A stretch of 64,000 nt of DNA, from positions 1,935,001 through 1,999,000 of the forward strand of contig NZ_CP119676.1 in the NCBI RefSeq assembly GCF_029318635.1, in the 5' to 3' direction. Within the stretch, counting starts at the first letter, position 1. Each line of letters starts with the position of its first letter. Below the pieces are notes generated by a model. It did not search any database. It was not told the origin of the DNA and saw nothing but the letters and a program-made list of their open reading frames with translations. Origin of the DNA: Varunaivibrio sulfuroxidans (GTDB lineage Bacteria; Pseudomonadota; Alphaproteobacteria; Rhodospirillales; Magnetovibrionaceae). Shown here in pieces: positions 23,512-57,823 of this stretch. Made by a program: the position numbers and the translations under genes.

Positions 23512-24420
23512 TTAACACTCAAGGCCTTTCAAAACCGCCGCGCGAAGATCGTCATCGACGGTAGGCAGGCCATCGGCGGTCCCCTCGACCGCCCCGAACC
23601 AGGCACGAAACCCGGGGCGCGCCTGGTGTAAAAGCATGCCCAGGCCGTCGATGGCGATCAGGCCGCGCGCCCGCGCCTGCGTCAATAACGGTGTCGTCAA
23701 GGGGCTGTAAACAATGTCGTTGACGACCCCGCCGGGGGCCATCGCCGTAAGTTCAATCGCCAGCGGCGGTCGCCCGTTCATGCCCAACACGGTCGTGTTC
23801 ACCAGCACGCGCGCCCCATCGAGGGCGGAGTTACGCCCAGACCACGGATGGGCGGCCAAGCGGACCCCGTCGGGAATTCCCCCAAAATTCACGACATCGT
23901 CGATCAACCGTTGGGCGCGCTCCCGGGTTCTGTTGACGATTCGAATCTCGCCGACGCCCTGATCGAGCAAGGCGACGACCACCGCCCGCGCGGCGCCCCC
24001 CGCACCCAGGACGACAGCACACGTCTCCCGCCCCAAATGCCGTGGCGCACCGGATTTTAAATTTTCAAGAAAACCGAAGCCGTCGGTATTACTCCCCTCA
24101 AGGCGGCCGTTCTTACCGACGACGATGGTGTTCACCGCGCCGATCCGGCGCGCCGCCGGATCGGCGCAATCGACGATTTTAAGCGCGTTTTCCTTATGCG
24201 GAACGGTGATGTTAACCCCACGAAATCCTTTTTTTTCAAGACCACGTAACGTCTTTTTAAGATCTTCGGGGGGTGTCGCCAGGCGGACATAATCGCCCTT
24301 TATAGCGTATTTTTCGAGCCAATAGCCGTGAACTCGCGGCGACAGGGAGTGGTTCACCGGCCAGCCCACGACACCGGCGCGCGTGTACCCGTCTGAAGGC
24401 GGAATGTTATCCGGGGCCAA
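23512..24420 (-). CDS. aroE: Shikimate dehydrogenase AroE
   Basis: 302 residues. Substrate loop VNHSLSPRVHGYWLE, catalytic Lys in NITVPHKENALK, and NADP-binding glycine loop GAGGAARAVVVALL. It reduces 3-dehydroshikimate to shikimate in aromatic amino acid synthesis. Slightly longer than E. coli AroE. It is followed directly by coaE. In relatives maf normally lies immediately upstream; here ada intervenes on the other strand. Confidence 0.94.
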   Translation of the reverse strand: MAPDNIPPSDGYTRAGVVGWPVNHSLSPRVHGYWLEKYAIKGDYVRLATPPEDLKKTLRGLEKKGFRGVNITVPHKENALKIVDCADPAARRIGAVNTIVVGKNGRLEGSNTDGFGFLENLKSGAPRHLGRETCAVVLGAGGAARAVVVALLDQGVGEIRIVNRTRERAQRLIDDVVNFGGIPDGVRLAAHPWSGRNSALDGARVLVNTTVLGMNGRPPLAIELTAMAPGGVVNDIVYSPLTTPLLTQARARGLIAIDGLGMLLHQARPGFRAWFGAVEGTADGLPTVDDDLRAAVLKGLEC

Positions 24421-32252: not shown

Positions 32253-32287
32253 TATATAATAACTTATAATGAATAAGTTATTATATA
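32253..32287. repeat. AT-only perfect hairpin after rho
   Basis: Inverted arms of 15 bases, TATATAATAACTTAT (32253-32267) and its complement (32273-32287), with a 5-base loop. It lies 25 bases after the rho stop and before the GC-rich terminator. It has almost no G or C, so it is a weak terminator by itself. It could be a processing or protein-binding site. Confidence 0.6.
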
Positions 32288-32310
32288 TTTTGTCTGTTTT
32301 ACTTCGATAA

Positions 32311-32346
32311 AAAGCCCTGGCGTTTTATAACGCCAGGGCTTTCTTA
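32311..32346 (+). terminator. Intrinsic terminator of rho (bidirectional with qor)
   Basis: Perfect 14-base stem AAAGCCCTGGCGTT (32311-32324), loop TTAT, complement to 32342, then TTCTT on the plus strand. On the minus strand the stem is followed by TTATCGAAG. It stands between convergent rho and qor and probably ends both. Confidence 0.8.
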
Positions 32347-55778: not shown

Positions 55779-56108
55779 GAGGTTCGGGGGTCTCGGGGAT
55801 GGTTGGGCGCTAAGTTCGGCGAAGGACGCCCGGTTGACGAAGGGTGCGATGACCAAGTGTGGCGCGCCGAGCGCGCAGGCGAACAATACCCCGATGGCGG
55901 CCCAATGAAAAGCGTCGAGTGTCCGATGTATGATCGAAGTAAGTCCGAGGCAAATCCGGGGCGCAGCGAACGCACACGACGCCCGCACCCGGTCCGAGTT
56001 GCATGTCTGCGTTTTTTAATTAAACTGGGAACGGGTATAACGCTATAACATACCTTGAAAGGCCTGGGTTCGCCCCCAGGGCGCGCAGGAACGAGAGGGT
56101 CCGAAAGT

Positions 56109-56798
56109 ATGACGGCCGCCAAACGGATACTTATCGTCGATGACGATGAGACGCTTCTTGCGATGTTGACCGAACAACTCACCTTGCTTGAGGAATTTCA
56201 ATGTGACGGCGTGGCGACGGGAGCCGGCGCCTTGGAAACGGTTCGCGAACGGCATTACGATATCATTTTGTTGGACGTCGGCCTTCCCGATATGGACGGG
56301 CGTGAAATTTGCCGCCTCTTGCGTAAAAGTGGGGTAACCGCTCCGATCATTATGTTGACCGGCGCGGACACCGACGCCGACACGATCTTGGGGCTTGACG
56401 CGGGCGCCAACGATTATGTCACCAAGCCGTTTCGCTTGGGCGTTCTGGTGGCGCGGTTGCGCGCGCATATCCGTCAGTTCGAGCGTAGCGACGATGCCGT
56501 GTTCATGATCGGCCCCTATTCGTTTCAGCCAAGCAATAAAATTTTACTGGACGAAAACGCGGATAAGAAGGTGCGCTTGACAGATAAAGAGGTTGCGATC
56601 TTAAAATTTCTCTACCGCAACGGGGAAAGGGTCATTTCACGAAATGTGCTGCTGGATGAGGTTTGGGGCTATAACGCCGGCGTGACGACCCATACTCTGG
56701 AAACCCATGTCTACCGGTTGCGCCAGAAAATTGAAGCCGATCCTTCAAACGCCGAAATTTTGGTGACCGAACCGGGAGGGTATCGTCTGGTGGTGTAA
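56109..56798 (+). CDS. OmpR-family response regulator
   Basis: 229 residues. Receiver domain with acidic pocket Asp11-Asp12-type DDD in ILIVDDDETLLA, phospho-acceptor Asp56 in LLDVGLPDMDG, and Lys in YVTKPFR. Winged-helix C-terminal domain of the OmpR/PhoB type ending in RLRQKIEADPSNAEILVTEP. No sensor kinase is adjacent, so it is an orphan here; related genomes have similar orphan regulators. Start at 56109 fits GAGAGGG upstream. Confidence 0.92.
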   Translation: MTAAKRILIVDDDETLLAMLTEQLTLLEEFQCDGVATGAGALETVRERHYDIILLDVGLPDMDGREICRLLRKSGVTAPIIMLTGADTDADTILGLDAGANDYVTKPFRLGVLVARLRAHIRQFERSDDAVFMIGPYSFQPSNKILLDENADKKVRLTDKEVAILKFLYRNGERVISRNVLLDEVWGYNAGVTTHTLETHVYRLRQKIEADPSNAEILVTEPGGYRLVV

Positions 56799-56837
56799 GG
56801 GGTCGCGGGGGATTTTTGAAGGTGGACGGCGCTTGGA

Positions 56838-56960
56838 TAAAAAACGAAAGACGCCCGGCTATGGGGGGATAGCCGGGCGTCTGCGGTTTCATTGGAAACC
56901 GGGCGGTCGAAGAAGGGGGGATCGTTCGACCGCCGGGTCGCGGAACATAGAGCGCGACCC
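56838..56960 (-). ncRNA. Candidate structured small RNA of four tiled stem-loops
   Basis: Read on the minus strand, four perfect hairpins follow each other with 0-1 base between: stem of 8 (56953-56960 with 56935-56942, 10-base loop), stem of 10 (56925-56934 with 56902-56911, 13-base loop containing C6), stem of 7 (56895-56901 with 56884-56890, CAAT loop), stem of 14 (56869-56882 with 56849-56862, C6 loop). The last is followed by TTTCGTTTTTT, an intrinsic terminator. CTATAG-type -10 lies just upstream on the minus strand (about 56969-56974). It lies in the gap between convergent genes. It could also be a processed 3' end of the lolA mRNA. No known RNA family is recognised. Confidence 0.55.
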
Positions 56961-57052
56961 TCTCGTAGCCTATAGATGGTGTTTGCAGTGGGTGCGGGCT
57001 ACTCTCTGGAATGCATTGCAGCCATGTGACAAAATCATACGTGCGACGCCAC

Positions 57053-57103: not shown

Positions 57104-57823
57104 TTAATCCTTGGGGCGCGACATCAAGGGTGCTTTGAAGTGGAAGAGCTTGGGGTCGAGAGGGATTCCGAAGCGGGCGTTTTGCAGCGAAACGGTGGTC
57201 AAAATCCCTTGGGCGTCCTTAATTGTCCACTTGCGCAACGTGAGGGGGTCATCGTCGAAGACCAATGTTAGGACACCGCCGAGTGGATCTTTCTTGCGCA
57301 CCACAGAGACGCGCAGAACGTGATCCGCCTTCACAAAATCGATAATCTTGAGGTCGCCGCCGGTTAGTTTGATATTTTTGTTAAGCAAGATATCCGCGGC
57401 GGTGGAGCCGATCGGCACATATGAGACCTGATTCAGTTCGGTGTCGTTGTAGATTAAAAACCGGCCGTCGGCGACAATAAGAACATGCACCGGCGGCGCG
57501 TAGGTTATGCGCATCTTCCCTGGCCGGGATAGGGAAATGACCCCCTGGGAATACCCCCCCTGGCTGGACACCTGAAGAAACCCGGCCTGTAGGGTGTGGA
57601 TGTTGTTCAAATAGGTTTGAATGCGCGCAATATCGGAACGATCCCCGGGGGTCAGGTCGGCTAGAGTGGGCTCGGCGCCGCCGTTTGGCGCTGTCGCGGC
57701 GGCGGCGGTTCTGGGCAGCAGCAGCGCCGCCAGGGCGACGACGGCGGCGATGACGAGCATGGCCGCGACGACCCATGAAACAAAAGGGGATTTGCGTATT
57801 TCAGGTACCGTATTCACTGACAT
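57104..57823 (-). CDS. lolA: LolA-type outer-membrane lipoprotein carrier protein
   Basis: 239 residues. N-terminal hydrophobic segment (SWVVAAMLVIAAVVALAALL) then PRTAAAA, a signal peptide. The LolA fold is seen in IQTYLNNIHTLQAGFLQVSS, GVISLSRPGKMRITYAPP and YNDTELNQVSYVPI. LolA ferries lipoproteins through the periplasm from LolCDE to LolB. It overlaps ftsK by 23 nt, an order common in alphaproteobacteria. It is somewhat distant from E. coli LolA, so LolA-like is the safe name. Confidence 0.85.
   Translation of the reverse strand: MSVNTVPEIRKSPFVSWVVAAMLVIAAVVALAALLLPRTAAAATAPNGGAEPTLADLTPGDRSDIARIQTYLNNIHTLQAGFLQVSSQGGYSQGVISLSRPGKMRITYAPPVHVLIVADGRFLIYNDTELNQVSYVPIGSTAADILLNKNIKLTGGDLKIIDFVKADHVLRVSVVRKKDPLGGVLTLVFDDDPLTLRKWTIKDAQGILTTVSLQNARFGIPLDPKLFHFKAPLMSRPKD

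Follow-up and report, generated by a model that had tools for sequence, protein, structure and literature searches.

In the window analysed here, a 64,000-nucleotide (64-kb) stretch of the Varunaivibrio sulfuroxidans genome, about 305 nt separate the end of a plus-strand response regulator gene (56798) from the stop of minus-strand lolA (about 57104), and a predicted small RNA (sRNA) gene of the RusT family lies in this gap, on the minus strand at 56841–56966. The upstream, same-strand neighbour is lolA (57104–57823; PF03548 match of 71 bits), and the response regulator (56055–56798, plus strand), which carries a receiver and a winged-helix output domain, is convergent with the sRNA and syntenic in relatives. 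The preliminary description of this gap had reported four tiled hairpins, and a hairpin scan returned the same stem lengths, coordinates, loops and spacing: perfect Watson-Crick stems of 8, 10, 7 and 14 bp tile 56849–56960 on the minus strand, with one base between the 14-bp and 7-bp hairpins and none between the others. SL1 (56935–56960) has the 8-bp stem and a loop of 10, CTCTATGTTC; SL2 (56902–56934) has the 10-bp stem and the loop CGATCCCCCCTTC, the predicted target-pairing seed; SL3 (56884–56901) has the 7-bp stem and the 4-nt loop CAAT; and SL4 (56849–56882) has the 14-bp stem and a C6 loop (CCCCCC). The U-tract TTCGTTTTTT at 56841–56848 directly follows the 14-bp stem, bearing out the intrinsic terminator that had been called on this strand. 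We place the 5′-end of the predicted sRNA near 56964–56966 from a conserved promoter-like element and take the RNA to end within the U-tract, close to 56841, giving a transcript of about 120 to 125 nt that is backed by its fold and by a covariance model match.

The minus strand of 56830–56970 has a minimum free energy of −75.3 kcal/mol, compared with −42.0 ± 3.7 for dinucleotide shuffles (z = −9.1; 0 of 200 shuffles as stable), and the predicted transcript itself (56964–56841) gives z = −8.9. A single place in the 64-kb window packs at least three perfect stems of 7 bp or more into 200 nt, namely this four-hairpin cluster. Long perfect hairpins are also present elsewhere in the window. Two stand in tandem at 32253–32342, a 15-bp AT-rich hairpin followed by the 14-bp AAAGCCCTGGCGTT-TTAT-AACGCCAGGGCTTT; the second resembles an intrinsic terminator. 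GC-rich perfect 14-bp hairpins with 3-nt loops, lacking a clear U-tract, lie at 609–639 and 24137–24167.

Searching 41 relatives for similar DNA turned up no match beyond the organism's own genome, not even among members of its family. The primary sequence is too diverged for such a search, and we therefore relied on synteny, collecting the lolA loci of 40 relatives and inspecting the sequence 3′ of lolA. Most of these loci share one layout, in which a variable SL1 precedes an SL2 whose loop reads, for example, UUCCCCU, followed by a small SL3 and then a terminator of the form GCGCCCGG-CCCCCC-CCGGGCGC-UUUU. SL1 varies in sequence while keeping its position, the hairpin being present in most of 21 relatives, and the SL1 region of relatives folds more stably than shuffled sequence. 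A covariance model (R1) of SL2–SL4, built from seven relatives with the window left out, matches 56932–56843 on the minus strand at 42.2 bits (E = 1.1e-6), and this is its single match in the 3.07-Mb genome (E = 5e-5). At E ≤ 0.1, R1 finds matches in 107 of 150 genomes and 55 of 72 genera of the order, mostly just 3′ of lolA. Among the 30 best R1 loci, lolA is directly upstream on the same strand in 26, and the same response regulator occupies the far side of most. Some genomes have two matches to the sRNA model (C115 and C134 in G100, at 78 and 77 bits; also G031), perhaps sibling copies.

Compensatory change is evident in the modelled structure. In the alignment of 40 relatives, which was fitted to the model structure and so inflates covariation counts, both partners have changed in 17 of the 22 modelled pairs and 95.4% of cells are paired, a level reached by 0 of 500 shuffles; when the pair partners are offset by one base as a control, pairing falls to less than 50%. 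All six modelled pairs of the SL3 helix show changes on both sides, as do 7 of 10 in SL4, where 99% of cells are paired, and the SL2 helix covaries both in the order alignment and in a class-level set. The same picture emerges from 46 independent class-level sequences, with 18 of 22 pairs changing on both sides. The loops are conserved in character as well: a run of at least four C residues is found in the SL2 loop of 36/40 and 37/44 homologues and in both outer loops (SL2 and SL4) of 34/40 and 34/44. The four hairpins make up the main part of a genuine, conserved structured RNA gene. The covariance check that had been proposed for this segment thus came out in favour of compensatory changes with C-rich loops retained, and together with synteny and promoter-like conservation it strongly supports the minus-strand sRNA that had been put forward, about 120 nt long and carrying C-rich loops.

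Sequence conservation extends upstream of the hairpins. A Gibbs motif search located a promoter-like motif about 50 nt upstream of the SL2 start in most of the 40 relatives (order consensus CCCCA-N2-TA), which together with an upstream TTGA scores 13.5 bits compared with 8.4–9.0 in shuffled sequence; in the window, its counterpart ACACCATCTA is at 56973–56982 on the minus strand, in the −10 position, with no clear TTGA or good −35 element upstream of the sRNA. The same approach located an operator at a fixed distance of −107 to −111 from SL2 in about two-thirds of the 40 relatives (16.6 bits, compared with 9.8 in shuffled sequence), with the palindromic order consensus GCCATGCG-N5-CGCATGGC-N-ATGCG. 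Its inner core, GCA-N9-TGC, equals the predicted NtrX site (PMC7240162) and is enriched upstream of the homologues (14/40 compared with 2.7 expected, and 16/46 compared with 4.2 expected). The window has a degenerate copy, CGTATGATTTTGTCACATGGCTGCAATGCA, at 57012–57041 on the minus strand, corresponding to ACA-N9-TGC. At several loci (L061, L065, L045, L004 and others), GCCATGCG-N5-CGCATGGC forms a double palindrome, with the second copy about 22 bp on, which constitutes a putative regulator site; the same double palindrome also occurs where neither lolA nor xth is nearby (L075 and L077).

No family in Rfam reaches its gathering score in the window or at 54 homologous loci. CC1840 RNA (RF01521), which likewise has C-rich loops and a terminator, scores 29.7 bits over 56850–56942 against a gathering score of 50, and at E ≤ 0.001 its model finds nothing in the organism's own genome or in 386 other genomes of the class, matching only the Caulobacter vibrioides control. 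The alphaproteobacterial sRNA ar7 (RF02342) scores 26 bits (E = 0.002) over 56845–56978 against a gathering score of 60 and has no match at the homologous loci. EcpR1 was dropped as a candidate on account of its locus, which is 3′ of divK-pleD. Two other alphaproteobacterial systems pair C-rich segments with G-rich mRNA sites and so follow a similar logic, but they are different families: GsrN (PMC5869019) is in most species encoded next to the general stress locus, and alphaR8/MmgR/SisA-D is defined by a single-stranded UUUCCUCCCU 10-mer (PMC12559287) that is absent from the minus strand of 56841–56966.

The closest counterpart is RusT (CCNA_R0199) of Caulobacter crescentus, a 118-nt sRNA encoded between lolA and xth that comprises four stem-loops with the terminator last, contacts Hfq at SL3 and carries its seed in loop 2 at residue C53 (PMC11005374). 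RusT is induced by iron starvation, is repressed by NtrX, has its own NtrX-bound promoter, and targets TonB-dependent receptors and others; published homologues are confined to the Caulobacteraceae (PMC11005374). Like RusT, the window RNA is 3′ of lolA and on the lolA strand, is about 118 to 124 nt long, has four stem-loops with the terminator last and contains C in its second loop, where RusT has its seed; by analogy, SL3 would be the counterpart of the Hfq-contact stem-loop. Hfq and NtrYX are encoded in this genome too, where the gene for an NtrX-like regulator lies between hfq and ntrY in a single cluster. The two RNAs differ in the far neighbour, which is a convergent response regulator in the window and xth for RusT, in the C6 terminator loop of the window RNA and in its different upstream operator. 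We treated xth, which was described for Caulobacter, as a typical rather than a defining neighbour of the family.

The difference in gene order is bridged within the class. A second covariance model (R2), which contains no Caulobacteraceae sequences, has matches at E ≤ 0.01 in 91 of the 387 class genomes. Among 44 of these class-level loci, lolA and/or xth is close to the sRNA in 31, invariably on the sRNA strand, and several are arranged lolA-sRNA-xth (e.g., L068). The order at L111 is lolA-sRNA-xth followed by a convergent response regulator, and this locus, having both xth and the response regulator, joins the two gene orders. The remaining 13 have neither lolA nor xth in the fetched flank (L075, L077, L083–L085, L091, L097, L099, L102, L105, L107, L112 and L113); these could be relocated copies or chance terminators, and weak class-level matches in general (E above about 1e-3) may include chance terminators.

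For a direct comparison, we located family f81 with a C. crescentus CtrA sequence as query and inspected the lolA-xth gaps of its members for a RusT counterpart; the assignment of f81 to the Caulobacteraceae is by inference from its CtrA (87–91% identical) and the rusT locus. R2 matches the lolA-xth gap in 23 of 29 Caulobacteraceae loci at E < 0.1, with a best E of 5.6e-6. Taken singly, these matches are weak (E of 6e-6 to 0.07), and the case for homology with RusT therefore draws on synteny and architecture besides sequence. The Caulobacteraceae SL2 core is GCCGG-(N)CUAUCCCCUCC-CGGC, then the terminator, with CGAUCCCCCCUUC as the window counterpart, and both have a conserved C-containing SL2 loop, AUCCCCUCC in Caulobacteraceae and CGATCCCCCCTTC in the window. 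After the RusT homologue of one Caulobacteraceae genome (L125), the terminator hairpin (GCCCCGTCGCCCTGTGCGACGGGGC-type) is tandemly duplicated 3′ of lolA. The window sRNA and Caulobacter RusT appear to be the same gene. Thus, the sRNA most probably belongs to the RusT family, as a base-pairing sRNA of the Hfq type with its own promoter, rather than to a new kind, and its position, architecture and model match make it a relative of RusT (PMC11005374), against the original suggestion of a novel sRNA.

The hairpins had originally been left as either an independent sRNA or a 3′ fragment of the ftsK-lolA transcript. A stable 3′ UTR fragment, cut from the ftsK-lolA mRNA by RNase and having no promoter of its own, would fit the position of the sRNA on the lolA strand about 140 nt downstream, the lack of a terminator-like site between lolA and SL1 in our scan, and the failure of a simple scan of the window to find a sigma-70-like promoter for the sRNA. 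Against this, the promoter-like element and operator are conserved upstream at a fixed distance in relatives, which favours an own promoter; Caulobacter RusT has its own NtrX-bound promoter (PMC11005374); and the 13 class-level loci mentioned above lack lolA and xth nearby, and at some other loci further sequence lies between the sRNA and lolA. We consider a processed fragment unlikely, and the independent gene is the alternative that is favoured, although read-through from lolA may still occur.

A second question is whether the resemblance to RusT is one of analogy, with two unrelated C-loop sRNAs having settled in the same gap. The core sequence differs in the Caulobacteraceae, their terminator loop is often not C-rich, their model scores are modest, and their upstream control motif is different, GCA-N9-TGC being absent upstream in 22 of 23 Caulobacteraceae loci. 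However, the gap, strand, length, order of the four hairpins and C-rich loop 2 are all shared, and intermediates with UCCCC-type SL2 loops and a C-rich terminator loop exist inside the Caulobacteraceae (L118, L124, L128, L129 and L146), so that we give independent origins only a small chance. Less likely again is that the locus serves as a terminator for convergent genes with additional stabilising hairpins and no trans-acting function. The locus does sit between convergent genes, and SL4 forms a strong intrinsic terminator for minus-strand transcription, but the plus strand has no U-tract after the structure and upstream control elements are conserved; moreover, SL2 and SL3 show compensatory changes and C-rich loops across the class, and termination does not need a conserved SL2 or SL3. 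A functional plus-strand RNA, whose G6 loops (GGGGGGAU) in the same stems would bind CsrA/Rsm-type proteins or sponge C-rich sRNAs, is highly improbable given that there is no plus-strand terminator, that R1 scores 13 bits on the plus strand versus 42 on the minus, and that in homologues the model, U-tract and strand of the neighbouring genes all point to the minus-strand orientation.

We think it probable that the locus is a trans-acting sRNA gene of the RusT family that has its own promoter, is terminated by SL4 and acts as follows. Transcription of the minus strand would start near 56965 from a promoter that may be controlled by a regulator of the NtrC type, with NtrX as the likeliest candidate, and would proceed through SL1–SL4 to the SL4 terminator, where the ftsK-lolA transcript probably ends as well. 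The degenerate operator copy in the window and the lack of the operator core at 22 of 23 Caulobacteraceae loci speak against assuming NtrX control. Hfq would hold the sRNA through SL3 and the U-tail, as expected from RusT and from sRNAs in general. The exposed C-rich SL2 loop (AUCCCCCC), and perhaps the C6 loop of SL4, would lower the translation of envelope-protein mRNAs by pairing with their G-rich ribosome-binding sites. The idea that the C6 loops act as seeds was part of the preliminary description, and it draws support from loop conservation and, by analogy, from the RusT experiments. Sequences complementary to the SL2 loop are no more frequent in the window than expected by chance. The TonB-dependent receptor Plug domain (PF07715) has no match in this genome, which is 98% complete, indicating that the TonB-dependent receptors, the main known targets of RusT, are not transferable and that the targets of the window RNA must differ.

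Trans-acting sRNAs are mostly thought to be narrowly distributed. RusT, supposedly specific to the Caulobacteraceae, has relatives in about one-quarter of the sampled genomes of the class and in most genera of one order, and this extension of the family far beyond the Caulobacteraceae, along with the NtrC/NtrX-like operator conserved in many members, is new. The family has no Rfam entry, a gap that the covariance model fills. We put at roughly even odds a broader scenario in which RusT is an old, class-wide alphaproteobacterial family tied to lolA-xth and to an NtrC/NtrX-like operator, and has been retargeted through two C-rich loops (SL2 and the terminator) rather than one in lineages without TonB-dependent receptors. 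With a covariance model, a fixed genomic position and a conserved operator to work from, it becomes possible to test how the targets of a single Hfq-type sRNA have evolved in different lineages, some of which lack the known target class of RusT.
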